Virus record (IMG/VR): IMGVR_UViG_3300037961_003462
Coordinates: 1-59,452 of that record
DNA: 59,452 nucleotides
Reading direction: 5' to 3' (one strand)
DNA from: a virus
The notes under the pieces were generated by a model. The model searched no databases, was not told the DNA's origin, and was given only the letters and a program-made list of their open reading frames with translations. Shown here piece by piece: positions 1-59,452 of this stretch (the first letter of the stretch is position 1; every line of letters begins with the position of its first letter). Both the position numbers and the translations under genes were made by a program.

Positions 1-2028
1 TTGTTGGTCTTTCTGAAGTTTTTTATTCTTCTTGACCTTTAAAAGCTGATTAGCAATTTTAGTGCTTTTCACCTCTCTTATATCAATCGCATCGTCAAGT
101 CCAATGTCACCCTTTTGAATAGCTATTTGAATGTTCTGTTCTAGCTTGGCCTTATCTTCTTCATCTGGAGCGACATCAACGAAAATGCCAAAGTCATACA
201 TATAATAGTCTTCTATATCTTTTATTATTTCAGACTTATGTCTTCCAATCTGCATGGCTAACTCTTCAGCATGCTCCATGTATTCCATTGCGTCAGATAG
301 TCTAATAGATATTGCCTGAGCAAGTTCTTTTGTTACAAAATGAGATGCATCAAGAATGTGTCGTGTTGCAGTATTGGAATTTGCTGCGGCTAACTTCTGA
401 ACACCAACCAAAGCATTTGAATCAGGAGTAGATCCGTCCCTAGCCTCATTCAGCCCAGTCACATCTCTAATCATTCTTAAGTAATGATTGTAATTGTTTA
501 TTAGGGCAGACATTTTTTGACCTCCCGAATGACCATTGATTGGCTGAATAGGAACTCTAGCATTATTGAAGTCTCCATCTTGTGTAAATGAGCGACCAAC
601 AACAGAACCTGTTTGAAAGTAAAGTCTAAGTGCATCTTCAGGATTGTATGCCGCACCTGTGCCTAAGTCAACCTCGTTAAGGCCATCGGCGTCAATAAAC
701 ACCCCATCTGGAGTCATACGGTTCATAACCTGCTGCAACTTGAGATGTGTAATCTGAATAAGGTCAGCAAAAGGAATCATTCTTCTTACTAAAGACTCTA
801 CATTCCCCTTATAAACTCTAGGTGCAACAGCCACATAGTTTGGCATTGCGTGTTGGGATGAAGATTTAGGCCTAACCATATTCTCCATAAGATTCCACTT
901 AAGTATAATGTTTGTTCCCATCACCATAACGCCCTCGTACCAAACATCAATAGTTTTCTCTACAACCTCAAACTTGCCATCCTCAATCATATCCTTTGGA
1001 GGATTAAAATCAGATGGTTTTTCAATCATTCTGACAGAACCGTTCTCCCCTACTTTCTTTTTGTACTTAAACGTGTTTGTTGTTTTGTAGTTAAAGTAAA
1101 GAAGGGTTGCAGTGTCTTTTCTAAAAGTATCATCCCCATAGGTGCTAGGCTCATTGTTGTAATCATAAAAGCCATAACTATATTCTGATATCTCAGATAA
1201 GTCTTCATTAGTTAAGGATGGGTCTATTTTACGTAACTCATTTACTGGAACGGTTTTAACCTCTCCCCAATAGAAACAATCTTTAAAGTAAGGGTCTTCG
1301 GTATAACTGTGTATAACGTCGGCAGGGTCAACATACTTTACTTCGACACCAGATCCTTCATTAAACTCATGCTTCGCAACACCCATTCCCAAGACAGCAA
1401 TGTCGTAGTTTATTCTTTTCTTTAAATCCTCGTAGAAATTATCTTCTAGTATAGTAGATATAGCAGTTTCGGCAGCAACCTCAATAGATGGCTTATACTT
1501 TAACTGCATAATTAAATCTAACTCCTCATCATTTTCTGGAAGTTCATCCTTGCTAAATGAATATGGATTAATGTTAAACTTTTCAGCCATATTGTCTAAT
1601 ATGGGTCTAGCTAACATCTCTGACTTCAGTCTGTCTTGATATGTGTTTCTTTTATATATAGATGTTGGATCCTGTGCCTTTACCTTTACATCAAAAATCC
1701 TATCTGTCATTCCATTGACAACAATGTCAACAAACTTAGGTATAATAGGAACAGGTGTCCAGTCTAGATTTAAATAGCTAAGGTCGCCATCAACGGCAAT
1801 CTCTTTTTTGTACTTAGATATCGACTGCTCTCCACGAGCGTACAATCTCATTTTGTGAAACTTTCGATACCTATCATAGTATCTACCCCGATTGCCATCT
1901 TTTCTAAACCATTCATATTGGATTGATTGCCCAATCCTTAAACCGAACTCAGGAGTTGCTTTCTTTTCGTCTGAAACAAACTGGTCGGGGAAATAGGTCG
2001 ATGGTATATCTACATTAACTTTCTGCAT
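1..2028 (-). CDS. Portal protein, N-terminal 676 codons (gene continues at 59452-58919)
   Basis: This is the portal, which forms the dodecameric ring at one capsid vertex through which DNA is packaged and ejected. The ATG at 2026-2028 directly follows the terminase stop. Across the joint the full protein is 820 residues (2463 bases after removing the 98-base duplication). The call rests on position (terminase-portal-scaffold-capsid), on size, and on resemblance of the region ending LDDAIDIREVK to crAss-like and related Bacteroidota phage portals, which I know from the family. The C-terminal part is a long Gln/Lys/Met-rich coiled coil. No signal or membrane segment is seen. Confidence 0.85.
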   Translation of the reverse strand, partial: MQKVNVDIPSTYFPDQFVSDEKKATPEFGLRIGQSIQYEWFRKDGNRGRYYDRYRKFHKMRLYARGEQSISKYKKEIAVDGDLSYLNLDWTPVPIIPKFVDIVVNGMTDRIFDVKVKAQDPTSIYKRNTYQDRLKSEMLARPILDNMAEKFNINPYSFSKDELPENDEELDLIMQLKYKPSIEVAAETAISTILEDNFYEDLKKRINYDIAVLGMGVAKHEFNEGSGVEVKYVDPADVIHSYTEDPYFKDCFYWGEVKTVPVNELRKIDPSLTNEDLSEISEYSYGFYDYNNEPSTYGDDTFRKDTATLLYFNYKTTNTFKYKKKVGENGSVRMIEKPSDFNPPKDMIEDGKFEVVEKTIDVWYEGVMVMGTNIILKWNLMENMVRPKSSSQHAMPNYVAVAPRVYKGNVESLVRRMIPFADLIQITHLKLQQVMNRMTPDGVFIDADGLNEVDLGTGAAYNPEDALRLYFQTGSVVGRSFTQDGDFNNARVPIQPINGHSGGQKMSALINNYNHYLRMIRDVTGLNEARDGSTPDSNALVGVQKLAAANSNTATRHILDASHFVTKELAQAISIRLSDAMEYMEHAEELAMQIGRHKSEIIKDIEDYYMYDFGIFVDVAPDEEDKAKLEQNIQIAIQKGDIGLDDAIDIREVKSTKIANQLLKVKKNKKLQKDQQ
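2..99. repeat. Terminal direct repeat, left copy (circular joint)
   Basis: These 98 bases are identical to 59355-59452. The portal reading frame continues without interruption across the joint, which means the contig is a linearised circle or a circularly permuted genome. The base just outside the repeat differs (T at 1, C at 59354); both give a Gln codon in the portal gene, so this may be a strain variant or an assembly edge error. Confidence 0.95.
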
Positions 2029-4347
2029 CTATCTTAATAATTGGCTATTACTACCCTTGTTATTATACCTTGCAAAGTTAATCTTTATTTTTGATTGTTT
2101 AACTTCAGGCTTATATAGGTGTTTTTGGTTGGCCATAATCGCTAGCCCCGAACTAATTGACGCATCATACTTTGTCCTGTTGTTTACATCAAACTTTGCC
2201 CAATCTTCTAGAGTTTTCACAAAAGGCATTGAACCTATGTCTCCCATCTCTCTAAACTCTCCTGTCATGTCAAGCCCAACATATTTTTCAATATACGACT
2301 CTATAGCGGATGCGTGAGCCTGTTTTACGTCCTCAGATGAGTTGGGTATGCCCCCTATCTCTCTTTCGGTCTTAGAGAGTTTGTTAGAGGCCTTGTCGGG
2401 CCTGTTCATGGAAAACGCCCTATACCCTCTATTCTTAAAATGATAAAGGAGCCTAGCCTTATTGTTCTCCGCAAGTATTGGCATACCATAAAACACACAG
2501 GCCATAAGCACATCTTCAAAGAACATCTCTGCTGTTTGTGGCCTAGCAATGTACTCTAAGAAAAACTCATTAGAAGGGCCCTCGTCCATGTGAAACTTGG
2601 TAAGCCCATGAAGCGCACCATTAGACGCTCCCCCTCCTACAGTTCCTGATATATCATAAGGGTCGCATCCGAAAGACCCCATGTGCTCGTTGCCAGGGTA
2701 TCTTCTGCCTCCCCTCATAATTACATTATTCTGCAAATGAGCTGGAGGAATCCAAGACAGTAAGAACCTACCGTTATTATCAGGACTCCAAACCACTTTG
2801 CTATCAGGACCATCCTTCCAATAGAACTTACCCCTTGTGACAAAATGCTCCTTTATTACAGAATCATTGTAGTCTATTTGCTGATATATCTTTGTGAGAT
2901 TAAATATAGATGACTTGCTCTCATCTCTGAAAGCATGCGACTCTGTTCTTGGGAACTGACGGTAAAACTCATTTAATGCATTCCCATCAGACTTCAGAGA
3001 CTTCACTTCGTTATCCCAATATGTAATAGCACCCGTAGATATCATCTCGCCATCCACTCCCTCTAGTTCAACGATAGGATCATCAAACACGGGCCACCCA
3101 AACTTGTTTATATACCCCTCGAAGTTCCACTCCATTGGAATAAACAATGAATACAGCCCACTCTTTGTCTGCCCGTTCGGGTTTCTTGTGGAGGGGTCCG
3201 AGTCCATATATAGTTTCTTGAAGTTGTCACCACCCTTGTTCAGTGCGTTACACGTAGACCCCATCATACACTTGCCAACGACACGACTACCTAGCCTCAA
3301 GCAGGTCTTAGTTACACGCCAATTGTTTAGAATGTTCTCAGGCTTATCCCACTTACCACTCTCGTCGTGTATTAGTAGTTTTAGTTTCTCACCATCGTAA
3401 CTATTGTCGGCTGTGTTCTTCCAGTCAATAGTAGTGTCAAGGCCATCCATATCATCGTCCATAACCTCGTGCATGTTCTTCTTTGTAATCTTAGAAGCCG
3501 GAACACGGAACGCCAACTCAGTCTTCGGCTTATCCATACCATCCTGAATAGGCTTAAAGAAAAATGGATAGTTGTTGGCTATCGGTACAATCTTGTCTAC
3601 AAATAGCTTCTTAGCATCACCTCCTGTCTTTGACAACACGCCAAGCCTAGAGTCCTTAGCTAACGTTCCCACATTTACAGACTCTGAAGCACCCATAAAC
3701 GAAAATCCTGAACGCCTAATCTTTAGGTAGCACATACCAAAGCACCTCTTATCCGCCTTGCAGGCCTCCCAGTATATGAAGAATATTCTATTGGCCTCTC
3801 TAAAGTCAGGATACCCAACGTCAATCTTAGTCCACTGCAAGTACATGTAATGAGACCCTGTAAGGTAGGTTGGCTCACCATGGTTCATATACCAAAAACC
3901 ATTCTCTCGGTTATCAAATTCCTGCTCGATATAGTCAACCCACATTGACTTGAAGTCAGACAACATTTCGTTCCATTGAAAGATTGACTTTATCCTATTT
4001 AGTTGTCTAGGATATTCCTTGCGCTCCCAATACTGCTCGTCTTTCTTTTTACTCCTAGAGTAAACATTCTTGGGTTGTTCGGGTAGACCTATAATAAGTC
4101 CATTAATATTGTACACCTCCCCTAGCGTACCATCTTTTGAGATGATTATAATATCGTACTTTTCGTCGTAGCCATACTTCCAGCTCTTCCCCTTGTTCTT
4201 TTGTCTTATGACTTGCTTGGGGATGCCTGAGTCTACAACTCGATATAAACTATTTTGACCTTCGTTCAGCAAATCCTCTAGTTGAACTTTTAACTTCGTT
4301 AAGTGCCTCTTTCTCCGCCTCGATTCTTGATAGTATCTCAAACGCAT
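2029..4347 (-). CDS. terL: Terminase large subunit
   Basis: This 772-residue protein is the ATP-driven packaging motor and headful nuclease. The ATPase half has a degenerate Walker A-like region around RRSGFSFMGASE, without a classic GKS/T, as in crAss-like terminases. It has a clear Walker B (LKLLIHDES) and a coupling-type motif (MGSTCNALNKGG). The C-terminal RNase H-like nuclease shows acidic positions at SFGCDPYD and ILAENN. The gene lies between the small-subunit candidate, which it overlaps by about 100 bases, and the portal, whose ATG follows the TAG stop directly. It is longer than typical TerL (450-600 residues) but within the range for large podoviruses of Bacteroidota. Confidence 0.9.
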   Translation of the reverse strand: MRLRYYQESRRRKRHLTKLKVQLEDLLNEGQNSLYRVVDSGIPKQVIRQKNKGKSWKYGYDEKYDIIIISKDGTLGEVYNINGLIIGLPEQPKNVYSRSKKKDEQYWERKEYPRQLNRIKSIFQWNEMLSDFKSMWVDYIEQEFDNRENGFWYMNHGEPTYLTGSHYMYLQWTKIDVGYPDFREANRIFFIYWEACKADKRCFGMCYLKIRRSGFSFMGASESVNVGTLAKDSRLGVLSKTGGDAKKLFVDKIVPIANNYPFFFKPIQDGMDKPKTELAFRVPASKITKKNMHEVMDDDMDGLDTTIDWKNTADNSYDGEKLKLLIHDESGKWDKPENILNNWRVTKTCLRLGSRVVGKCMMGSTCNALNKGGDNFKKLYMDSDPSTRNPNGQTKSGLYSLFIPMEWNFEGYINKFGWPVFDDPIVELEGVDGEMISTGAITYWDNEVKSLKSDGNALNEFYRQFPRTESHAFRDESKSSIFNLTKIYQQIDYNDSVIKEHFVTRGKFYWKDGPDSKVVWSPDNNGRFLLSWIPPAHLQNNVIMRGGRRYPGNEHMGSFGCDPYDISGTVGGGASNGALHGLTKFHMDEGPSNEFFLEYIARPQTAEMFFEDVLMACVFYGMPILAENNKARLLYHFKNRGYRAFSMNRPDKASNKLSKTEREIGGIPNSSEDVKQAHASAIESYIEKYVGLDMTGEFREMGDIGSMPFVKTLEDWAKFDVNNRTKYDASISSGLAIMANQKHLYKPEVKQSKIKINFARYNNKGSNSQLLR

Positions 4348-4561
4348 CGAATATGGCTAGTTTCTTTGTTGCAGCAGCATTCTTAAGCCTATCAGCAGCA
4401 AGTTCATCATCAGGATCTGGCTTGATGATATTTTCCTCAGCCACCTTGATGAGTTGTTGCACGGCCTTATAACCTGCATCAATAATTTTTTTCTTTATCT
4501 CTGAAGTGTTCGCTGTACTTTTTGTCCCAGCTCCAGTCTCCTGTTTTTTTGAATTGCTCAT
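4250..4561 (-). CDS. Putative terminase small subunit
   Basis: The protein is 103 residues from MSNSKKQ at 4561; an in-frame ATG at 4576 adds five residues. It is mostly helical, with a low-complexity Ser/Thr/Gly/Lys N-terminus followed by charged helices. Small terminase subunits recognise phage DNA and recruit TerL. The assignment comes from its place directly upstream of terL, its size and its helical character; no helix-turn-helix is obvious by eye. The 3' part overlaps the start of terL by 98 bases in another frame. The 4576 start overlaps the TGA of an 18-codon ORF (4576-4632) as TGATG, which could couple translation and would favour the longer form. Confidence 0.5.
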   Translation of the reverse strand: MSNSKKQETGAGTKSTANTSEIKKKIIDAGYKAVQQLIKVAEENIIKPDPDDELAADRLKNAAATKKLAIFDAFEILSRIEAEKEALNEVKSSTRGFAERRSK

Positions 4562-4645
4562 AAATCCATATTGCATCAGGGCATCTCTGCCATCTGTACT
4601 TTCCTTTTATTCTTTTCAATTTGCATCCGCATTGAAGCCACCTTT

Positions 4646-5215
4646 CTACTTTTTCCACTGAATCGTAATGTTCTCGGTAAACATCCTGTACAGGTCCTCC
4701 CCATCTATCTTAAACTCATATTCGCTATCAGGCTCAAAAGATATCCTGTCCCCAACGCTAAGACCTAAATCTACAAGCTCCTTATTAATATACTTAATCT
4801 TACCAATAAGTGGCTGATGTGAGAGCGGATTAAATAGCCAAGATTGCTCAGGCCCTACCGGCTCTATGAAGCAGTATTTGCCTGGACACTTCCAATCAAC
4901 GCCATCATTGTATAAGAAAAACTGATCGTGGTCAACCAAGAATAGGTCGTCCTTGAAGAAACTCTTACCACTCCTGTGGTTACCCTTCATGTCGTAGTAT
5001 GTTCTGAAAACATTATGGTGCACCAAGATAGTATCACCGACCTTTACGTCGCCATCATAATTTATTGGAACGGAGAGAACCTCTGCCTCTCTATTTGTAA
5101 CCGTATGGTCTTCAGGAGATATACTTAAAATAAAATCAACGTCACCTATCTTCTTTGTGTTGTTGTATCTCCGTCCGCCTTTAGGTTTAACTAAAAACGA
5201 ATGAATTGATTGCAT
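4646..5215 (-). CDS. Tandem GroES-like (co-chaperonin fold) protein
   Basis: A 189-residue protein that reads as two GroES-like units. The C-terminal unit (about residues 112-184) has LSVGDRISFEPDSEYEFKID followed by GEDLYRMF, which lines up with the GroES segment VGDRVLF...EVKLDGEEYLIL. The N-terminal unit (about 3-101) has EVLSVP, VKVGDTILVHHN and a closing DDLFLVDHDQFF strand. Known phage co-chaperonins (T4 gp31 type) assist capsid-protein folding with GroEL. I infer a co-chaperonin or an assembly factor built from the same fold. It is encoded just upstream of the terminase genes, about 7 kb from the phage's own groES/groEL. A plain structural protein with a chance GroES-like fold is the alternative. 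Confidence 0.6.
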   Translation of the reverse strand: MQSIHSFLVKPKGGRRYNNTKKIGDVDFILSISPEDHTVTNREAEVLSVPINYDGDVKVGDTILVHHNVFRTYYDMKGNHRSGKSFFKDDLFLVDHDQFFLYNDGVDWKCPGKYCFIEPVGPEQSWLFNPLSHQPLIGKIKYINKELVDLGLSVGDRISFEPDSEYEFKIDGEDLYRMFTENITIQWKK

Positions 5216-12258: not shown

Positions 12259-12481
12259 CGGTGATAACCATACCGTCAAACATGGCATCATGGCCTGCGC
12301 TCTTGTCGTAGTAAATAACATCACCCTCCTTTACGCAGGTGACTTTATCTCCAGCTCCTAGCACAACCCCTTTGTTGTATCTGAAGTGCAGTGCATCGTC
12401 CTCAGACAATAATAAACCGCTCTCGTTCTTGAGCTCTTCCTGAATCTTCTCGATTATTACGTAGTTATTCACCGCTTTCAT
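12203..12481 (-). CDS. groES: Co-chaperonin GroES
   Basis: 92 residues. It starts with the beta-strand YVIIEKIQEE, then a mobile loop with the hydrophobic tripeptide (NESGLLLSEDD, about 20-29), then GVVLGAGDKV and VKEGDVIYYDKSAG, and ends DAVIV. This is the GroES core, slightly short of the usual 95-97. It caps GroEL to form the folding chamber. It lies downstream of and overlaps groEL by 17 bases, the reverse of the usual bacterial groES-groEL order. The C-terminal DSASQ tail is atypical. Confidence 0.88.
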   Translation of the reverse strand: MKAVNNYVIIEKIQEELKNESGLLLSEDDALHFRYNKGVVLGAGDKVTCVKEGDVIYYDKSAGHDAMFDGMVITVIRDRDAVIVCAPDSASQ

Positions 12482-14054
12482 ATGTTCTTGCTAAAGTTAC
12501 TATTGCATTTGTACTAAGTATTGTCGTGGCAACCGACACTGCGTTGCGCAATGCGTTCTTCGTCACCTTTGCCGGATCAACAATCCCCATATCAATCATG
12601 TTCCCATACTGATTGTTCTTTACGTCGTACCCCTGCACACCTCCAAAGACCCCGCCATCAATAATGTCGTCTAGATCGTGCCCTGCATTATCTAGTATCT
12701 GAGTGATAGGAGCCGTAAGCGAGTTGCACATAATCTTACATGCTACACTAGTCTCATCATCTCCATCAACTTCGCACACGTTATTGTACAGTGCAATCCC
12801 TCCACCAGGCAATATTCCCTCTTCTAGGGCTGATTTTACCGCACATACAGCGTCATCTACCCTGTCATAGAGCTCTTTTTGCTCCAAATCTGAGTTACCA
12901 CCCACATAAATCACCCCAATGGCTCCCTGGAGCCCCGCAATGCGCTTAGAAATGAAGTCCTTGTCCTGTTTTTTATGTGCTTCCTCTCTTTGAACCTCTA
13001 ATTCTTCTACTCTCTGCTTGATTTCGTCGTTATACTCTTCGCTTCTTATGATAATTGTCTTATCACGACCCACAATAACCTTTTCTGCGTGCCCTAAGTC
13101 GCCATAATTCGCAAATTGTATGTTATCACCCGTCTGTTCAGACAAATATGTAGCCCCAAGAGCCAATGCAATGTCTCCCATGAGCTCATGCTTACGATAT
13201 CCGAAGTCAGGTGGTATGATATTACAGAATTTTAGTCCATTCCTGACCACATTGGCTGCTAAGGTGTTAATAACGTTCTGTGAGCACGTACCGATAATCA
13301 AAAGTTTCTTCTGTTCATTGATAACTTGCTTCAAAACACCTTCTATACTGATAAGATTCGATATCTCTTGGTCTGTTACAAGAACATGCACGTCTTCTAG
13401 TATGCACTCGTCCCTTCTTTGGTCGTTCACAAACAACGGAGAGGTGTATCCTCTATCAAGCTGGATTCCGTGGGTGACCTCTGAGGTAGTATCTGATGTC
13501 TGACTCTTCTCTACGGTAACAACTCCGTTCTTCAACCCTACCTTCTTGTAGGTGTCGGCAATAACCTTACCTATTTCCTCATCATTGTTAGCAGATATAG
13601 TAGCTACATCTTGCAACTTCTTTTGGTTTACCCTGATTGACTGATGATCTAGATACTTTATTATCTCCTCAGCCTTCTTGTTAAGGGCTCTTAGAACTTC
13701 CGTCACATTATGGTGGGGCTCAATCAGCCTTAGTCCCTCTTTCACTATGGCTTCCGTAAGGACGATGGCTGTTGTAGTTCCATCACCAGACGATAGGGCC
13801 GTCCTATCGGCTGCTTCCCTTACCATGCGAACAGCGAGATTCTCGACAGGGTCGAGGAGGTCGATGGAGCGAGCCACGGTGACTCCGTCCTTCGTGACTG
13901 TAATGCCATGCGTATGCTCGTTAGATTCTATCAGTACTGTGTTACCTCTCGGACCGAGAGTTGACTTGACCGCTTTAGCGATCTGTTCTATGCCACTAAC
14001 TAGACGTTCACGTCCTTCCTGGTCAAAGCACAGGTTCTTTGGTTGGTAATTCAT
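12465..14054 (-). CDS. groEL: Chaperonin GroEL
   Basis: 529 residues against about 545 in E. coli. The ATP site is intact: TLGPRGN near 33, TKDGV with D56 (E. coli D52), GDGTTTA with D91 (E. coli D87), and RVDDAV (E. coli D398). The apical domain keeps the hydrophobic substrate/GroES-binding strand (LDRGYTSPLFV). EYGNMIDMG-type C-terminal motifs are present (QYGNMIDMGIVDPAKV). The usual Gly-Met repeat tail is absent. It probably makes a functional phage chaperonin for virion protein folding. Divergence from cellular GroEL is moderate, which suggests acquisition followed by adaptation. Confidence 0.95.
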   Translation of the reverse strand: MNYQPKNLCFDQEGRERLVSGIEQIAKAVKSTLGPRGNTVLIESNEHTHGITVTKDGVTVARSIDLLDPVENLAVRMVREAADRTALSSGDGTTTAIVLTEAIVKEGLRLIEPHHNVTEVLRALNKKAEEIIKYLDHQSIRVNQKKLQDVATISANNDEEIGKVIADTYKKVGLKNGVVTVEKSQTSDTTSEVTHGIQLDRGYTSPLFVNDQRRDECILEDVHVLVTDQEISNLISIEGVLKQVINEQKKLLIIGTCSQNVINTLAANVVRNGLKFCNIIPPDFGYRKHELMGDIALALGATYLSEQTGDNIQFANYGDLGHAEKVIVGRDKTIIIRSEEYNDEIKQRVEELEVQREEAHKKQDKDFISKRIAGLQGAIGVIYVGGNSDLEQKELYDRVDDAVCAVKSALEEGILPGGGIALYNNVCEVDGDDETSVACKIMCNSLTAPITQILDNAGHDLDDIIDGGVFGGVQGYDVKNNQYGNMIDMGIVDPAKVTKNALRNAVSVATTILSTNAIVTLARTYESGE

Positions 14055-14268
14055 ATTAGATTTAATTTATGCCACTAATATAGAAATAAAACATGACGAC
14101 CTGACAACTTTTTTCCACGATACACTCTCTTATATATTTATTCTTCAAATATTTTTTTAATACTAATTTTTTGACTACTAAAGTCGTCATCTTGTCATAA
14201 ATGTTGATATATAAGGATTCTATCATCATAAAGTCGTCATAAAATATGATAACTTTCGTCATAATACT
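14055..14268. promoter_or_regulatory. Intergenic control module A with GTCGTCATAA repeats
   Basis: 214 AT-rich bases separate divergent groEL and tRNA-Arg. Repeats of (G/A)TCGTCATAA occur at 14183-14190, 14192-14200, 14222-14231, 14233-14242 and 14255-14264, with one inverted copy at 14093-14100. The block from TTG at 14171 through TTGATATATAA matches module B at 27000-27151. A groEL promoter (minus strand TTG, about 22 bases, TATATTAG) would have the inverted repeat in its spacer, so a binding protein could repress it. Confidence 0.6.
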
Positions 14269-14342
14269 GCTCCTATAGCTCAACTGGATAGAGCAACTGC
14301 CTTCTAAGCAGTAGGTTTCAGGTTCGAGTCCTGATGGGAGTA
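14269..14342 (+). tRNA. tRNA-Arg (anticodon TCT)
   Basis: A full cloverleaf can be drawn. The acceptor GCTCCTA pairs with TGGGAGT, including two G-U pairs. The D-arm is AGCTCAACTGGATAGAGC, the anticodon stem ACTGC/GCAGT has loop CTTCTAA (anticodon TCT at 14313-14315), and the T-arm is CAGGTTCGAGTCCTG. CCA is not encoded. It reads AGA, a codon favoured in AT-rich phages. It stands at the head of the plus-strand operon, 13 bases before the first gene. Confidence 0.93.
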
Positions 14343-16531: not shown

Positions 16532-16651
16532 TGTCTTTGTTTTTGTAAAGGTATAAAATTCACGAGACACCCGTAGTTTTCGGGTTATATATAGATTTTT
16601 TATTTTTTTTTATTTTTTAGAACTGACCCCCCTATTGCGATTTTTTTTACC

Positions 16652-16667
16652 AAACAAACGTTTGTTT
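16652..16667. promoter_or_regulatory. 16-bp perfect palindrome
   Basis: AAACAAACGTTTGTTT reads the same on both strands and sits between T-tracts. It is a likely binding site for a dimeric protein. Confidence 0.5.
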
Positions 16668-16758
16668 TGTAATTTTTGTCGTTTTTATTGGACACCTTGT
16701 TATCGTGTTGATAACTTTATTTTTTTATGTCCTAGATTTTTTGTATTCGTGACGTTCG

Positions 16759-16867
16759 AAGTTTTACGTTCACAATCATCAAAGTTTTGCGCCAAAGTTT
16801 TACGTAAATCATGACCGAAAAGTTCAGCACAAATTCTATTCAATTTTACTTCGACGTTTTACGTTTT
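16759..16867. repeat. Iteron-like AAGTTTTACGT repeats
   Basis: Four direct copies: AAGTTTTACGTT at 16759-16770, AAAGTTTTGCGCC at 16781-16793, AAAGTTTTACGTAA at 16794-16807, and GACGTTTTACGTTTT at 16853-16867. All are on the same strand and none lies in a gene. Confidence 0.55.
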
Positions 16868-17048
16868 TTTCGTCGCACATTTCGATACATAGTATAGCCA
16901 CATTCCACACGTATACACGTACATTTTCGGTCTCCCCAGAAAACATATGTGCATTTTTTTGAAATTTTTTTTACCACTTAATTAATTGAATATCAAAGAT
17001 TTACATCGATTCACTCAATACCTTTTGAAATTTTTTTTTGCAAAAAGG

Positions 17049-17080
17049 TTGCATAAGTGAAAAGTATTCGTATATCTTTG
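17049..17080 (+). promoter_or_regulatory. Bacteroidota-type promoter (TTG ... TATCTTTG)
   Basis: The -33 element is TTG at 17049-17051, followed by a 21-base spacer and TATCTTTG at 17073-17080, an exact TAnnTTTG match. The predicted transcription start is near 17085. It would drive the structured RNA and the genes from 17709 onward. Confidence 0.75.
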
Positions 17081-17084
17081 TATT

Positions 17085-17667
17085 GCATTGCGGAGGTGGG
17101 ATTGGCAAGGTGCTCTAATAATCTTGATATTATTTCTTTTGGTATCTCTAAGGGTTATTAATCACCACTCAGTCACGGAGAAAGCAATATAGTTTTTTAA
17201 CATCTTGAATAGTACACGTTAGGAGAACGAGACCTAGACCAATATGTCACGCAAGGGCATTTAGGCGATAGGGAATATGAAGTACTTTATCGATATCATT
17301 CTTGCCTATGGTCACGCAAGGGCCATGTCAAAAGGTTTGAATGATTGCGTTTGTTGGAGGATAATCCAACAGATAAAAAGGAAAAGATTTAGGAAAAGTA
17401 TTCCGCTATCTAGGTAGGAGTAAATTATCAATGGGAAAGTGTACAACGCTTGTGACGAATGAAGGCGGCGTTAATAGTCATTCACTAGATAGCCAATGGG
17501 AGGCAACATCCGAAAAGGAACACTCAACACGAAAGTTCGAGGTTAAGTTTATCTGTTACTTAGAATATCCCATCACAAGAAAATTATTTCTTAGGTCTTA
17601 CAACCACGCTATGGTTAGTTAATAGAGGTTCGATTCCTCTACGTGGTTCTACATGCAAGACGCATGT
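17085..17667 (+). ncRNA. Candidate large structured noncoding RNA / leader
   Basis: About 580 bases between a strong promoter and the first gene at 17709, without convincing coding potential. Helices visible by eye: two hairpins with the identical 11-base loop TCACGCAAGGG (loops at 17247-17257 and 17312-17322) on different stems; a 7-bp hairpin TGTTGGA/TCCAACA (17352-17371); and a 9-bp long-range helix GCTATCTAG/CTAGATAGC (17405-17413 with 17485-17493) enclosing a possible pseudoknot (17445-17449 with 17468-17472; 17457-17462 with 17478-17483). The 3' end is a tRNA-like minihelix and a 6-bp hairpin. Size and phage context recall GOLLD/ROOL-class RNAs, but I cannot match it to either. Confidence 0.55.
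17602..17649 (+). ncRNA. tRNA-like T-arm/acceptor minihelix 1
   Basis: AACCACG (17602-17608) pairs with CGTGGTT (17642-17648). Between them are a 14-base connector and a canonical T-arm AGAGG-TTCGATT-CCTCT. D- and anticodon arms are missing and no CCA is encoded. A 6-bp hairpin ACATGC-AAGAC-GCATGT follows at 17651-17667. A near-identical element occurs at 18381. Confidence 0.65.
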
Positions 17668-17708
17668 TAGCCGCGCGATTCTGCGCAATTTATTTTAATC
17701 ATTTTATC

Positions 17709-18074
17709 ATGTCAAAAATTAAGACAAACACAAAGAAAGCCGTTTCATTAACCTCTGTTCTCACAAAAGAGCATAGAGATTTCATTAACAAGACCTACCT
17801 TTCACCTAGTGGTCATATGAAGTATTTCATTCATGACGAACTTGGTAAGAAAGCCATTCGTGCTATTGTAAAAGATAGAAACGAAAAATTTGGTACATCA
17901 GTTACGGTTGAGCAAGTACTTGGTAAAGGTAATCCTAGACATATAATGGAATTCATGTCCGACTACCGTAAGAATTCAAAAGATGGAAAACGCAAAGATG
18001 CAATTTCCATGTACTTCTTTATTCAAGCAATTGGTAAGTTTATCGAAAGCAAAAAAGCTGCTAAGAAAAAGTAA
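17709..18074 (+). CDS. Basic protein of unknown function following the structured RNA
   Basis: 121 residues from ATG at 17709 (MSKIKTNTKKAVSLTSVLTK). An upstream in-frame extension to 17643 would overlap the minihelix and hairpin and is rejected. Lys-rich at both ends (C-terminal ESKKAAKKK), with helices such as KHRDF-like EHRDFINKTY and GKKAIRAIVKDRNEKFG. Monocistronic: it follows the structured leader and is closed by a strong terminator at 18104. High basicity suggests nucleic-acid binding, possibly the leader RNA itself, but that is inference. Confidence 0.75.
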   Translation: MSKIKTNTKKAVSLTSVLTKEHRDFINKTYLSPSGHMKYFIHDELGKKAIRAIVKDRNEKFGTSVTVEQVLGKGNPRHIMEFMSDYRKNSKDGKRKDAISMYFFIQAIGKFIESKKAAKKK

Positions 18075-18103
18075 GACTACCAGACTTCAGACGATTTTTT
18101 GAT

Positions 18104-18127
18104 AGGGACATTTATGTCCCTTTTTTT
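18104..18127 (+). terminator. Rho-independent terminator
   Basis: AGGGACAT-TT-ATGTCCCT hairpin followed by a run of T, 30 bases after the stop of 17709-18074. Confidence 0.85.
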
Positions 18128-18166
18128 ATGCCCTATAGTTAGGGGATTTTTTAACGTGGAATCATT

Positions 18167-18179
18167 TTCACACTCACTA
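18167..18179 (+). promoter_or_regulatory. Shared upstream motif TTCACACTCACTA, copy 1
   Basis: This 13-mer lies 9 bases before the ATG at 18189 and recurs exactly at 22703-22715, 10 bases before another ATG. Probably a shared translation or transcription signal. Confidence 0.4.
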
Positions 18180-18188
18180 TTTATTACT

Positions 18189-18371
18189 ATGACAAATTTT
18201 ATTTTCTCAAGTTCTGTTCAGTTGAACAGACATTTAGACATCCTTGAAGAAGCAAGGGAGACTCGCCTGGCGGAAATCCGTGAAGAAGCAGACCGCCAGA
18301 TCACCATGCTTATGGCACAAATAGGCGAAGTAGACTTAGGTGAATTAGGTCTAGTCGAATGGGACGTTTAG
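18189..18371 (+). CDS. Small acidic coiled-coil protein
   Basis: 60 residues from ATG at 18189 (MTNFIFSSSVQLNRHLDILE). An in-frame extension to 18099 would read through the terminator hairpin and is rejected. The centre (EEARETRLAEIREEADRQIT) is a clear coiled coil. It lies between a terminator and the second tRNA-like minihelix. Function unknown. Confidence 0.6.
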   Translation: MTNFIFSSSVQLNRHLDILEEARETRLAEIREEADRQITMLMAQIGEVDLGELGLVEWDV

Positions 18372-18380
18372 GCGTACCAA

Positions 18381-18425
18381 AACCACGTTTGGAATAAATA
18401 GAGGTTCGATTCCTCTGCGTGGTTC
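18381..18425 (+). ncRNA. tRNA-like T-arm/acceptor minihelix 2
   Basis: AACCACG (18381-18387) pairs with CGTGGTT (18418-18424). A 12-base connector leads into the T-arm AGAGG-TTCGATT-CCTCT. It is followed by the hairpin AACGTACA-ATGG-TGTGCGTT (18426-18445). Compared with copy 1 the connector and following hairpin differ in sequence but keep pairing. It starts 9 bases after the stop of the previous gene. Confidence 0.65.
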
Positions 18426-18459
18426 AACGTACAATGGTGTGCGTTATAAATCAGAATCT

Positions 18460-18657
18460 ATGTATAAAATAGCACGTTTTTTTAATTCGCTAAACTACGT
18501 CTGCATACTTGGTGTGTGCTATATGGTGTTAAGCGAAATCGATTATTGTAAGAATGCAGGAGAACAATTTGATTTGCTCTTCAATGCACTCTTAATCTTG
18601 ATGGCAGGGCAGTACTTCCGTATTGTCAGTTTATTAATCTTAAAAGGAGAGCAATGA
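18460..18657 (+). CDS. Small membrane protein
   Basis: 65 residues from ATG at 18460 (MYKIARFFNSLNYVCILGVC). Two TM segments are predicted (NYVCILGVCYMVL and LLFNALLILMAGQYFRIVSLLIL). An in-frame GTG at 18439 would lie inside the hairpin and is unlikely. It opens a chain of overlapping early genes. Confidence 0.6.
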   Translation: MYKIARFFNSLNYVCILGVCYMVLSEIDYCKNAGEQFDLLFNALLILMAGQYFRIVSLLILKGEQ

Positions 18658-26999: not shown

Positions 27000-27151
27000 A
27001 CAACCATATGACGACTTTTCGGTTACCAACACTAATAATATTTTTTATATCTGAATTTGTTTTTACAACGAATATTTTGGGATGTAAAGTCGTCAGGTCG
27101 TCATAACCTTTGATATATATAACTTTTATCGTCATAAAATCATCATAAGAA
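27000..27151 (+). promoter_or_regulatory. Intergenic control module B with GTCGTCATAA repeats
   Basis: About 150 noncoding bases directly before the primase-helicase ATG. Repeats: GTCGTCA at 27089-27095, GTCGTCATAA at 27097-27106, ATCGTCATAA at 27128-27137, ATCATCATAA at 27139-27148, and inverted ATGACGAC at 27008-27015. The arrangement TTG, 24 bases, TAACCTTTGATATATA matches module A (14055-14268). It looks like a promoter with operators, possibly controlled by the same regulator. Confidence 0.6.
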
Positions 27152-29548
27152 ATGACAATTTCTATATTTAAGAACATAAAAGATACAACACAACCCTTTG
27201 AGAGGGATGTGCTGCACATCTTAGAAAGAATCAGGGAGGGGGCTTCCAGGGATGTAATAAAGGACATTCGTGGGGAGCGAGACAAGTCAAGGAGAAATCA
27301 ATTGAAGCAGGATTTACCAGCTATATGTTTTTCCGGGACTTTCAAGAAGAGAGCAGACAACGCACTCATTAAGCATAGTGGCCTTATGTGTTTAGACTTC
27401 GATGGCTACGACAGACAAAAGGATTTGCTAGAGGATAAGGAGAAGTTCAAGCAAAACAAGTTTGTATACTCAGTATTCCTTTCTCCATCGGGAAAGGGTC
27501 TTAAGGTATTGGTGAAAGTTCCAGCTGATGAAAGCAATCACAAGAACTATTTCAATAGCCTTGAGAAATACTTCAAGTCCGATAAGTTTGATAAGACGTG
27601 TAAGAACGTTAGTCGTGTATGCTACGAGTCCTATGACCCTTTGATCCATATCAATGAGAATAGTTCCGTTTGGGATAAGGTCGAGGAAGATAGTTACACG
27701 GAGCTGATGAAGAACCGGGACAAGCCCTCGATACCAATCACGGATGAAAACAAAATCATTGACATACTGGTGAAGTGGTGGGAGAAGAAGTACCCAATGG
27801 TAGAAGGGCAAAGGAATCATAACGTTTACATATTAGCGGCTGCGTTTAATGATTTTGGAATAAATAGAAGTCTTGCCGAGTTTTATTTACGTCAATATGC
27901 AGCAGAAGGTTTCAATGAGGAGGAGATCATGGCTACTATTGTTTCGGCATATAGTCACACGGCAAAGTTCGGTAGTCGATACTACGAAGACCAAGACAAG
28001 ATGCAGTACGTCAGAGACAAGATGAGATCAGGTGTATCAAAAAAAGACATACGATGCCAGCTTGAGCCATTAGAGGAGAAAGGAGTGGATATTGATGGCA
28101 TCCTTAAATCGGTTGAGCAAGAACAAGAGGAGCAGATGTTCTGGACTAAATCGGATAAGGGTAAGGTGAGCATCGTACCTCTGTCGTTCAAACTGTTCCT
28201 AGAGGATAATGGGTTCTATAAGTACAACCCTGAGGGTAGTAAGAACTATGTCTTTGTAAAGGTGACCAACAACCTGATTGACCATACCTCAGAGAAGGAA
28301 ATAAAGGACTTCGTTCTGAATTACGTGCTAGACCTGGAGGACTTGTCGGTGTACAACTACTTTGCTGAGAGCGTTAAGTATTTCCGGGAGGAATTCCTGA
28401 CCTTGCTATCATCTATCGATGTATACTTCATTGAGGACGAGAAGGACTCAAGCTACCTGTACTATCGTAATTGTGCTGTCAAGGTTACGCCAAAGGAGAT
28501 AATACCTATCGACTACATGGATCTGGGCGGATACGTTTGGAAAGACCACGTAATTGATAGGAACTTCCTGATGTGCAAGCCTAGGGACTGCGATTACAAG
28601 ACGTTCATTCATAACATATGTGGCAAGGACGAGAATCGTATTCTATCTATGGAGTCTACCATTGGATTCCTGATGCATGGATACAAGAACATGTCGTACT
28701 GCCCAGCAGTAATCCTTAATGACGAGGTGATAAGCGACAACCCTGAGGGTGGCACAGGTAAGGGTATAGTAATGAATGCCCTATCGCAGATGAAGAAGCT
28801 GGTGACTATCGATGGTAAGTCATTTACTTTTGAGCGTTCTTTTGCTTATCAGTTGGTATCAGCAGATACTCAGATACTATGCTTCGATGATGTGCGTAAG
28901 GCGTTCAACTTTGAGCGGTTGTTCTCGGTGGTTACTGAGGGTTTGACGTTGGAGAAGAAAAACAAGGATGCAATCAAGATTCCTTTCAAGAGGTCGCCTA
29001 AGATTGCCATTACAACCAACTACGCCATCAAGGGTAAGGGTAATTCATTTGAGCGACGTAAGTGGGAGTTAGAACTTCACCAGCATTATAGTAAGGACTT
29101 CACTCCATTAGATGAGTTCGGTAAGTTGATGTTCGGAGATTGGGATGATGATGAGTGGTGTGACTTCGACAACTACATGATATCTTGTCTACAGATGTAC
29201 ATGAAGGATGGCCTTATCAAGAGTGAGTTTGTCAACCTAGCAATACGTAAGCTCAGTGCTGAGACCTGTCACGAGTTTATTGAATGGTGTGGATTGATAG
29301 ATGGCGCAAAGCCATCAGACCTAATAAGGCCTAACATTAGGCTGCGTGCCAATGATTTGTACATTAGGTTTACTGATGACTATCCTGACTTCGCACCGAA
29401 GGCCAAGATGTCTGTGTCCAGGATTAAGTTCCATCGGTGGCTCAGAGCCTACGGCACGTTTAAGTATTCCAATGTAGAGGAAGGCAAGGATATGGAGGGT
29501 AAGTGGATTTTGTTTGGGAATGAAAAGAATGACGATGTTCCGTTTTAG
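27152..29548 (+). CDS. Primase-helicase (BT4734-like N-terminus, SF3-type helicase)
   Basis: 798 residues. The N-terminal third resembles the BT4734/VirE-N primase-like domain, with a conserved LCLDFDGY strand (about 83-90) and SPSGKGLK (about 110-117). The C-terminal half is a P-loop ATPase: Walker A NPEGGTGKGI near 530, Walker B ILCFDDV near 575, and a sensor-like KIAITTNYAIKGKG, as in SF3 and related phage helicases. It would unwind and prime phage DNA. It is the main replication protein visible; no DNA polymerase accompanies it. Confidence 0.85.
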   Translation: MTISIFKNIKDTTQPFERDVLHILERIREGASRDVIKDIRGERDKSRRNQLKQDLPAICFSGTFKKRADNALIKHSGLMCLDFDGYDRQKDLLEDKEKFKQNKFVYSVFLSPSGKGLKVLVKVPADESNHKNYFNSLEKYFKSDKFDKTCKNVSRVCYESYDPLIHINENSSVWDKVEEDSYTELMKNRDKPSIPITDENKIIDILVKWWEKKYPMVEGQRNHNVYILAAAFNDFGINRSLAEFYLRQYAAEGFNEEEIMATIVSAYSHTAKFGSRYYEDQDKMQYVRDKMRSGVSKKDIRCQLEPLEEKGVDIDGILKSVEQEQEEQMFWTKSDKGKVSIVPLSFKLFLEDNGFYKYNPEGSKNYVFVKVTNNLIDHTSEKEIKDFVLNYVLDLEDLSVYNYFAESVKYFREEFLTLLSSIDVYFIEDEKDSSYLYYRNCAVKVTPKEIIPIDYMDLGGYVWKDHVIDRNFLMCKPRDCDYKTFIHNICGKDENRILSMESTIGFLMHGYKNMSYCPAVILNDEVISDNPEGGTGKGIVMNALSQMKKLVTIDGKSFTFERSFAYQLVSADTQILCFDDVRKAFNFERLFSVVTEGLTLEKKNKDAIKIPFKRSPKIAITTNYAIKGKGNSFERRKWELELHQHYSKDFTPLDEFGKLMFGDWDDDEWCDFDNYMISCLQMYMKDGLIKSEFVNLAIRKLSAETCHEFIEWCGLIDGAKPSDLIRPNIRLRANDLYIRFTDDYPDFAPKAKMSVSRIKFHRWLRAYGTFKYSNVEEGKDMEGKWILFGNEKNDDVPF

Positions 29549-44891: not shown

Positions 44892-45734
44892 CGGATTACT
44901 TTTCATTTTGTCCGTTTCTATAGCATACAGCTCAATAAGTGCTTGAGAGTCCATGTCTATTTTAGTAATCATATAGTGACCTGTTAGTCCATGAGACTCG
45001 TCATCTGTTGCAGGATCTGGAACAGAGTATATAAAATTACCACTAGATGCCGCTGACCCTCCTGTTGTTGTTATGGTGGTAGTCGTGCCTGATTGTGTAA
45101 TCGCAGTAACAGTTCCCAAGAACGTGGGAGTTTGGTTTGGCGTTTCAACAGCGTTGCCATCGTTGTCTAAATCAGTCAATGTTCCAGACGTTAATATCCT
45201 GTCGCCTATGCCAACCATACTATTTATACTCGCCAAGTCAAATTGTATACTATTCGCTACAGTATTGGCGTTACAAACACCTATACCTTGAGCAAACCGC
45301 ATATCCACCTGAGTATCTGTTATGGGCTGTCTTATGTATGAGTAGAATGAGTTTTCTTTCTTCTCGAACTGGTCAGAGCCCACAGTCCCATTGTGAAGGT
45401 CAGTAGTTGTAGTTGCCGCCAATGATCCTCCAACAGGAACGGTAGCACTAACCCTAATGGCCTTATATATATCAGCCTCTATTGGCTTTTCGTTAAATAC
45501 AGTTTCTATGTATGGAGTAGTAAACGGAGTAATACTTGTGTCTCCGTCTGTGTTCTCCTCTAAATAAAATGTAGCCCTTAGGCTTGCCTTTTGGTTGTGT
45601 ATGTTGATGTTGCCATTCTTAAACGTAAAGAAGTCGCTATTCATCCCAATCATAAATTCAGGATTGTACCCATAAAATGAAGGCCACCCCCCTCTATCCG
45701 GTAAACTAGGGCTATATGTTACTGTGTACGCCAT
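44889..45734 (-). CDS. Virion structural protein
   Basis: 281 residues, beta-rich. The start MAYTVTYSPSLPDRGGWPSF then YGYNPEFMIGMNSDFFTFKN is typical of tail proteins next to amidases in Bacteroidota podoviruses. A module with GIGDRILTSGTLTDL and FLGTVTAITQSGTTTTI resembles the recurring beta domain of this phage. Overlaps the amidase by one base. Probably a tail component. Confidence 0.65.
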   Translation of the reverse strand: MAYTVTYSPSLPDRGGWPSFYGYNPEFMIGMNSDFFTFKNGNINIHNQKASLRATFYLEENTDGDTSITPFTTPYIETVFNEKPIEADIYKAIRVSATVPVGGSLAATTTTDLHNGTVGSDQFEKKENSFYSYIRQPITDTQVDMRFAQGIGVCNANTVANSIQFDLASINSMVGIGDRILTSGTLTDLDNDGNAVETPNQTPTFLGTVTAITQSGTTTTITTTGGSAASSGNFIYSVPDPATDDESHGLTGHYMITKIDMDSQALIELYAIETDKMKSNP

Positions 45735-58918: not shown

Positions 58919-59452
58919 TTACTCAAAATTACTACTTTCTTCCATATTGAAATTTTCTATCATATTCGGAAAGTTTAGTTTCATTTCTTTTTTATCCTCT
59001 TCAAAATTCATTGGAGGAAGATTGTTCTTTCTTTGATTAATAAGTTTTGACTGCTGAGTGTTCTGCTTGCTTATTCTAGCTTCTTTACCAGTCTCTTTCA
59101 TTTTATCTCTGCTCTCAAGTTTAGATTCTTTAAGTTCAGCTAACTGATAGTCAAACTCAAATTGCTTTGCCATTAACATTGATCTTATCTCTGCTTCACG
59201 CATCGACTTCTCCATGTCTATTTGAGCCTTGAATTGCATTTCTCTAGCAGCCATTTGAGATTCAATTTGTTGTTTTTGCATTTCCATTTGCATAGCGGCC
59301 TGCTGTTTCTGCATTTCCATTTGAGACTTAAACTGCTGCTGCTTTTGAATGTTCTGTTGGTCTTTCTGAAGTTTTTTATTCTTCTTGACCTTTAAAAGCT
59401 GATTAGCAATTTTAGTGCTTTTCACCTCTCTTATATCAATCGCATCGTCAAG
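58919..59452 (-). CDS. Portal protein, C-terminal part (continues from 2028-1)
   Basis: The reading frame enters at 59452 from the other end of the circle and ends at 58919. A GTG at 59425 is in frame but internal, so a separate 168-residue gene is not expected. This part is a Lys/Gln/Met-rich coiled coil (QQKQ-type heptads; MEMQKQQIESQMAAREMQF), ending in an acidic tail. It would form the portal's crown/barrel or C-terminal extension. Confidence 0.8.
   Translation of the reverse strand, partial: LDDAIDIREVKSTKIANQLLKVKKNKKLQKDQQNIQKQQQFKSQMEMQKQQAAMQMEMQKQQIESQMAAREMQFKAQIDMEKSMREAEIRSMLMAKQFEFDYQLAELKESKLESRDKMKETGKEARISKQNTQQSKLINQRKNNLPPMNFEEDKKEMKLNFPNMIENFNMEESSNFE
59355..59452. repeat. 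Terminal direct repeat, right copy (circular joint)
   Basis: Identical to 2-99. See the left copy; it lies in the portal gene and marks where the circular genome was cut during assembly. Confidence 0.95.

Follow-up and report, generated by a model that had tools for sequence, protein, structure and literature searches.

In the MALAT1/mascRNA system, RNase P acts on a tRNA-like element that lies downstream of a long noncoding RNA, and this forms the 3' end of that RNA. Among phages, the large RNAs GOLLD and ROOL are often found near tRNAs, and the GOLLD linker sometimes holds tRNAs (PMC12286853). A mark of these two families is an RNA-only multimer with kissing loops between the molecules. E. 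coli RNase P RNA efficiently cleaves hairpins that consist of an acceptor stem, T stem and T loop alone, and does so at the canonical position (PMC11143913); RNase P gauges the stack of T stem and acceptor stem from the elbow (PMC4919913).

Here we analyse a locus in a virus record of 59,452 bases, the whole of which is referred to below as the window. The RNA at this locus is noncoding and has a covarying fold, and thus belongs to the general kind of large structured phage noncoding RNAs. At its 3' end stands a minihelix that a first-pass annotation, made from the sequence alone, had treated as a detail. This minihelix, an anticodon-less tRNA-like element (TLM), is the most general feature of the locus and is common to many other phages. 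Phage RNAs that are large and structured have been described before, as has punctuation by tRNAs; the TLM is possibly a new class of element.

Results

The phage and its noncoding locus

Cultured phages with terminases related to that of the window infect Flavobacterium, Cellulophaga, Maribacter and Tenacibaculum. An exact direct repeat of 98 bp at the termini of the window (2-99 and 59355-59452) indicates that the record is probably a complete genome, though it is classed as linear. The phage encodes a GroEL (12465-14054), with a tRNA-Arg gene on the other strand at 14269. ARAGORN also called a tRNA-Gly at 45119-45201, which lies antisense inside an ORF, was not confirmed by Rfam and is probably spurious. 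Two stretches that repeat GTCGTCAT are 73% identical (14148-14255, upstream of the tRNA-Arg/groEL region, and 27054-27161, upstream of the primase gene) and are possible operator or promoter repeats.

The noncoding stretch lies between a ferredoxin-like gene (PHROG 3704) and a small-gene module; all features of the locus given below are on the plus strand. One relative, 90% identical and without indels, was found, IMGVR_UViG_3300025127_000033 (hereafter the relative), and the body was found in no other phage. A phage closely related to that of the window, L006, whose groEL is 87% identical and whose upstream genes are the same, carries small genes instead of the RNA, and L007 resembles L006 at the RNA locus as far as its contig extends.

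The stretch was originally proposed to open with an exact promoter, and this was borne out by a Bacteroidota-type promoter, TTG-N21-TATCTTTG, at 17049-17080, of which the -7 element and its neighbourhood are identical in the relative. The pattern TTG-N18-22-TANNTTTG has five matches in the window, and this is the only intergenic one, the other four lying within ORFs. The structured RNA body of 517 nt extends from 17085 to 17601, its 5' end being estimated from the promoter and its 3' end from the TLM. Across the body, 53 substitutions and no indel separate the window from the relative. These fall 16/20/17 by position modulo 3, that is, with no codon-position bias, as compared to 4/2/20 in the next gene, in agreement with the earlier view that the stretch is noncoding.

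This next gene (17709-18074), downstream of the first TLM, encodes a lysine-rich protein of 121 aa, and 20 of its 26 changes are at third codon positions. The protein had no PHROG or Pfam match, was modelled by AlphaFold as all helical with a mean pLDDT of 58.9, and showed no similarity to the basic protein beside the TLM of phage L016. A stem-loop read from the sequence (ACATGC-AAGAC-GCATGT, 17651-17667) stands directly 3' of the first TLM. In the interval between the body and the 121-aa gene, neither a terminator nor a sequestered start was found, except for a weak stem at 17673-17686. An intrinsic-terminator-like stem with a T run follows the gene (18104-18128). As part of our explanation as a whole, it is on balance probable that promoter, RNA, TLM, one small basic-protein gene and terminator form a short transcription unit, with the RNA at its head.

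The fold of the RNA body is under selection

A consensus fold of 17085-17648 was computed with RNAalifold from the window and the relative. It contains 162 pairs, of which 18 are changed on both sides (12 in the body and 6 in the 3' minihelix), and no standard pair is broken. As a consensus fold carries a bias, each sequence was also folded alone and the other one was scored on that fold. The window's own fold, scored on the relative, gave 9 both-sided changes and 7 broken pairs, versus 0.7 and 19.3 expected when the same substitutions were placed randomly; none of 2000 placements equalled either value. With the relative's fold scored on the window instead, the outcome was weaker (3 both-sided changes and 14 broken pairs, P = 0.03 and 0.0035). 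The consensus energy was -115.7; 40 column shuffles gave -87.6 (sd 4.5), and the reverse strand gave -84.3. Single-sequence folding was only moderately better than chance (z = -2.2). The fold of the body is under selection, as supported by covariation that, with two phages compared, counts single events rather than providing a phylogenetic test.

The both-sided changes are spread over several parts of the body. The 5' domain (17087-17188) is a helix, 17087-17091/17184-17188, around a long hairpin, with such changes at 17090/17185 and 17102/17172. A long-range helix, such as the first-pass annotation had proposed, exists between 17267-17278 and 17398-17410 and carries four. One more is found in the hairpin UUUGUUGGA...UCCAACAG (17349-17374), at 17358/17365, and three in the 3' domain (17492-17596). 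A 10-bp complement between 17368-17377 and 17548-17557, a candidate pseudoknot, is invariant with respect to the relative and overlaps a supported hairpin.

Homologues of the body were sought in several ways. Searching 50,697 phage records with blastn returned only 16 chance-level matches. In viral contigs, a pattern of the two hairpin loops described below matched a single contig, that of the relative, and a pattern conserved in the 3' part led to the same contig; model R3, which covers both hairpins, gave no new match in 59 sources or 29 records. A 17-mer of the first hairpin occurs, beyond the relative, in five contigs, where it looks coincidental and lies within unrelated, mostly coding sequence. 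The three matches of the two-loop pattern in genome contigs are unrelated tandem repeats.

Kinship with GOLLD or ROOL, of which size and phage context had been reminiscent, was not supported by the Rfam covariance models (GOLLD, ROOL, OLE and tmRNA), which gave no match. In the window as a whole, Rfam yielded one match at gathering score, the tRNA at 14269, and for 16600-18500 none of these four families was among the matches up to an E-value of 10.

Two hairpins carry one repeated module

The 13-mer GTCACGCAAGGGC occurs exactly twice, at 17246-17258 and 17311-17323. When the 517-nt region was shuffled 1000 times with dinucleotides preserved, an exact repeat of at least 13 nt arose in 4 cases. 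Both copies fold as GUC, a bulged A, C[GCAA]G and GGC, so that a short stem with a bulged A is capped by a GNRA tetraloop. The claim that two hairpins share an 11-nt loop is thus right as to the exact repeat, but not as to an open loop, since the sequence folds inward. Modules of this GNRA-capped kind, when repeated, typically mark places of tertiary docking or protein binding.

In hairpin 1 (17239-17265), the module is identical in the relative and no pair varies, so this hairpin gives no covariation signal. In the relative, one of the four pairs of its proposed outer stem, CCTA/TAGG, is broken, whereas the stems proposed for hairpin 2 (17295-17345), ATCATTC/GAATGAT and ATGG/CCAT, hold. Hairpin 2 presents the same module on a different stem, and its comparison with the relative shows one both-sided change (G-C to A-U), two one-sided changes and no broken pair. 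Pairing of the repeated loop with CUUGCC just upstream was considered and dropped by eye; that stretch is altered in the relative.

The RNA is followed by a tRNA-like element lacking the anticodon arm

The tRNA-like 3' minihelix of the first-pass annotation, TLM 1 (17602-17648; models R1 and R2), proved well founded: six of its pairs are changed on both sides in the relative. It consists of a 7-bp acceptor stem, a 14-nt linker containing GG (17609-17622) and a T stem of 6 bp with the loop TTCGATT. A second element, TLM 2 (18381-18424), has an 11-nt linker (18388-18398), and 9 nt separate it from the stop of the preceding 60-aa gene (18189-18371). The architecture is a 7-bp acceptor stem, a D-loop-like linker of 11-14 nt with GG, a 6-bp T stem and a T loop. 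As compared to a tRNA, the anticodon arm is absent, whereas the acceptor stem and the T arm with its TTCRANY loop are present. Judged by sequence, the 13-bp stack of acceptor and T stems, together with the linker GG, would fit the geometry of an RNase P substrate. In the window, ARAGORN listed the tRNA-Arg and the tRNA-Gly only, with no tmRNA, and both TLMs were unreported by ARAGORN and Rfam alike. With promoter, covarying fold and TLM 1 in place, the first-pass view of a structured RNA that has its own promoter and is tRNA-like at the 3' end is sustained, its transcription being what these features imply.

TLMs recur in unrelated phages

An initial scan of loci turned up TLMs in the unrelated phages L016 and L029; shuffled sequences contained no short-linker TLM. 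A pattern blind to the acceptor stem, which favours one linker type, gave at least 103 non-redundant matches. Among the matches listed, 13 of 103 pair at 6 or 7 of the 7 acceptor positions in the TLM register, as compared to 0 to 5 in 13 shifted registers. In a gapless alignment of 23 TLMs, 95% of the cells were paired, with 130 both-sided cells, and sliding by one to three columns reduced these values to 41-47% and 23-35. Most of the 23 rows had been chosen by a pairing criterion, and the register test is therefore the unbiased one.

Across the 23 copies, the GG, a T three positions after it and the T-loop core are invariant, and the closing G-C of the T stem is kept while the stems vary. The acceptor ends vary freely and have no common motif. 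Acceptor stems are 5-7 bp and linkers 10 to about 35 nt long, and no CCA is encoded; such variable lengths might not suit RNase P if it measures strictly. Rfam gave no match to a TLM-bearing locus in the ten examined (92.6 kb). The sole ARAGORN call over a TLM, a permuted tmRNA in L227, is probably spurious. The scans also catch pieces of true tRNAs (in L007 and in annotated tRNA genes) and probably a few false matches.

The distribution of TLMs was further surveyed with models R1 and R2. R1 matched 4 of 30 records of groEL relatives, one of which (L038) is dubious, with four unpaired positions, and none of 43 terminase-relative records (43 of 80 loci); R2 matched none of nine long terminase-relative records. 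The lack of the RNA in L006 and of a TLM match in the 43 terminase relatives indicates that neither part is essential to the lineage. Among 395 Bacteroidota genomes, R1 matched two and R2 four, of which only the match in G188, between two phage-like structural genes, was both strong and full length. R2 had no match in 299 Bacillota genomes, where stricter filters were applied. R2 also matched 27 of 40 records, most of these having been preselected by the TLM pattern or a scan match. TLMs are present in many unrelated phages, Bacteroidota phages and mycobacteriophages among them.

TLMs are placed at the ends of genes

Of 38 non-redundant TLMs, 17 start between -7 and +12 nt from the stop of an ORF of at least 40 codons on the same strand. 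In L128, a Bacteroidota genome, the TLM fills the gap between a stop and the next ATG. Among cultured mycobacteriophages, 12 TLMs were found in Fowlmouth (L206, L261) and 13 in Cuke (L262), all in the small-gene module, in lists pooled from several scans. Every one of them (12 of 12 and 13 of 13) lies within 20 nt of an annotated stop, as compared to 11% of random positions, and 8 of the 12 and 9 of the 13 lie exactly 8-10 nt from it. Conversely, 8 of 12 intergenic gaps of at least 60 nt in Fowlmouth and 10 of 13 in Cuke hold a TLM. A scan of both strands of the Fowlmouth, Cuke and MrMiyagi stretches gave 12, 15 and 12 sense matches (annotated tRNA genes included) and no antisense match, and 20 shuffles of each stretch gave none.

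No TLM is annotated in these records, and unannotated copies occupy most gaps of the small-gene modules at L261:13770-21760 (Fowlmouth) and L262:10010-18930 (Cuke). At most Fowlmouth TLMs a small stem-loop, like that after TLM 1, stands between the element and the next start, and in most copies the ribosome-binding site AGGATGG comes after the TLM and stem-loop. Fowlmouth gp47 and gp56 are annotated to start before or within a TLM, so these annotated starts may be wrong.

Other candidate RNAs lie upstream of a TLM

Upstream of the TLM in L211 is a noncoding stretch of 755 nt (3895-4649), predicted to fold very stably (z = -7.9), which we consider a candidate for an unrecognised large RNA. L200 has 274 nt of structured sequence directly upstream of its TLM (z = -3.7), and in L016 the 400 nt upstream fold weakly better than shuffles (z = -1.8). 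In L174 (7280-9050), an array of about 14 units spans 1.8 kb free of long ORFs; most units are a GUGA-tetraloop hairpin, with differing stems, and then a TLM. In the light of these four examples the RNA of the window seems to belong to a broader pattern, while the body itself has no relative elsewhere.

Discussion

The promoter sequence, the noncoding status and selected fold of the body, and the fold, recurrence and placement of TLMs are all observed; transcription, cleavage, the identity of the enzyme and a binding partner for the body are what we infer from them. The best explanation, and one towards which we lean, is that the phage makes a discrete RNA of about 515 nt that acts in trans and has its 3' end formed by an RNase P-type cut at the TLM. 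The promoter at 17049-17080 would set the 5' end of this RNA. The tRNA-processing machinery would mistake the TLM for a pre-tRNA, and RNase P-type cleavage would occur at its first base. As far as the accounts of minimal-hairpin cleavage (PMC11143913) and of the elbow ruler (PMC4919913) go, the two together imply that a TLM would be cut at its 5' side. Such a cut would create the 3' end of the upstream RNA, and trimming on the 3' side would free the downstream mRNA. Once released, the RNA would most likely work in trans, either as a structured scaffold or as a sponge, offering its two GNRA-capped, A-bulged helices to a protein or to RNA helices. TLMs would punctuate gene boundaries in other phages likewise.

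In the chief rival reading, the RNA would be a 5' leader that acts in cis on the 121-aa gene, such as a riboswitch, an attenuator or an HK022 put-type antitermination element, with the TLM just a part of it. Leader RNAs with paired hairpins are known at the heads of early transcripts, and the RNA does lie between the promoter and the gene, after which a terminator follows. However, known put sites are far shorter than the body, and the interval before the gene offers only the weak stem at 17673-17686 by way of a terminator or sequestered start. TLMs also stand at gene ends with no leader nearby, which argues that they are not leader-specific, and we regard a leader function as unlikely, if worth keeping in mind. 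Processing at the TLM is likely whether the RNA is discrete or a leader. A divergent member of GOLLD, ROOL, OLE or tmRNA, as size, phage context and structured body might suggest, is scarcely credible in view of the absence of an Rfam match or an ARAGORN tmRNA, and of acceptor halves that are adjacent with no tag domain between them.

The remaining alternatives concern the TLM itself. It might be the product, matured and CCA-tailed into a mini-tRNA that mimics a tRNA or acts as a decoy, its target being a synthetase, a tRNA nuclease or elbow-binding machinery, with the upstream RNA a side product. The constancy of the linker GG, the TTCRANY loop and the closing G-C of the T stem amid varying stems would suit this, as would the L174 array of about 14 units without a long ORF, but the acceptor sequences differ between copies, which leaves no common charging identity, and the tight placement at stop codons goes unexplained; we find this reading improbable. 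Alternatively, TLMs could act as DNA, either as attC-like recombination sites between cassettes or as tRNA fragments derived from integration. Integron cassettes carry one element per gene in constant orientation, and TLMs likewise come one per small gene and in one orientation. The conserved core ends of integron attC sites are RYYYAAC and GTTRRRY, and an identity with attC was rejected when the acceptor ends of the 23 copies were found to vary freely. Partial tRNA genes are known in prokaryotes (PMC9897764). Against a DNA element stand the completeness and covariation of both TLM stems, the retention of residues that make tertiary contacts in tRNA, the want of an end motif common to the copies, and the existence of single isolated copies and noncoding arrays, all of which make it very improbable.

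Returning to the discrete RNA and its processing at the TLM, a broader proposal, on which our own opinion is evenly balanced, is that anticodon-less tRNA mimics form a class of RNA element that is specific to phages and occurs in phages of unrelated hosts, which would punctuate operons gene by gene and set the 3' ends of noncoding RNAs via the tRNA-maturation enzymes of the host. The half-kilobase RNA would be one product, and the arrays of GNRA hairpin plus mimic another. If this is right, a compact mark for cutting, shaped like a tRNA, exists in phages and is overlooked by Rfam and by the usual tRNA finders. Each small gene or noncoding RNA would get its own ends, and the regular gaps of 80-120 nt in phage small-gene modules would be explained. 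TLMs would also be a hook for finding unrecognised phage RNAs upstream, as the noncoding stretches of L211 and L200, which are clearly structured, and of L016 illustrate. Among the open-licence PMC papers found by searching, none described anticodon-less tRNA-like elements between phage genes, and no family for an anticodon-less tRNA mimic that punctuates operons and ends noncoding RNAs was found in Rfam 15.

Like GOLLD and ROOL, the RNA of the window is a long structured phage noncoding RNA near tRNA features. However, it is about 515 nt long, matches no covariance model, ends in an anticodon-less mimic and is known from two phages only. TLMs recall the tRNA punctuation of mitochondria, in which tRNA-shaped intergenic elements mark cuts in a polycistronic RNA, cutting at TLMs being our proposal; unlike these, they stand in phage operons, have no anticodon arm and are not tRNAs. 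With the tRNA-like domain of tmRNA they share an acceptor stem, a GG-bearing D-loop-like stretch, a T arm and the lack of an anticodon arm, whereas their acceptor halves are joined by a linker of 11-14 nt, with no tag reading frame or pseudoknot domain. As in MALAT1/mascRNA, a tRNA-like element follows a noncoding RNA, but TLM 1 belongs to a bacterial virus, has no anticodon-like arm and would be cut as proposed here. Nearly identical in architecture are the acceptor-T-stem-T-loop hairpins that serve as model substrates for E. coli RNase P RNA (PMC11143913); these are synthetic, whereas TLMs are natural and carry a GG-bearing linker.
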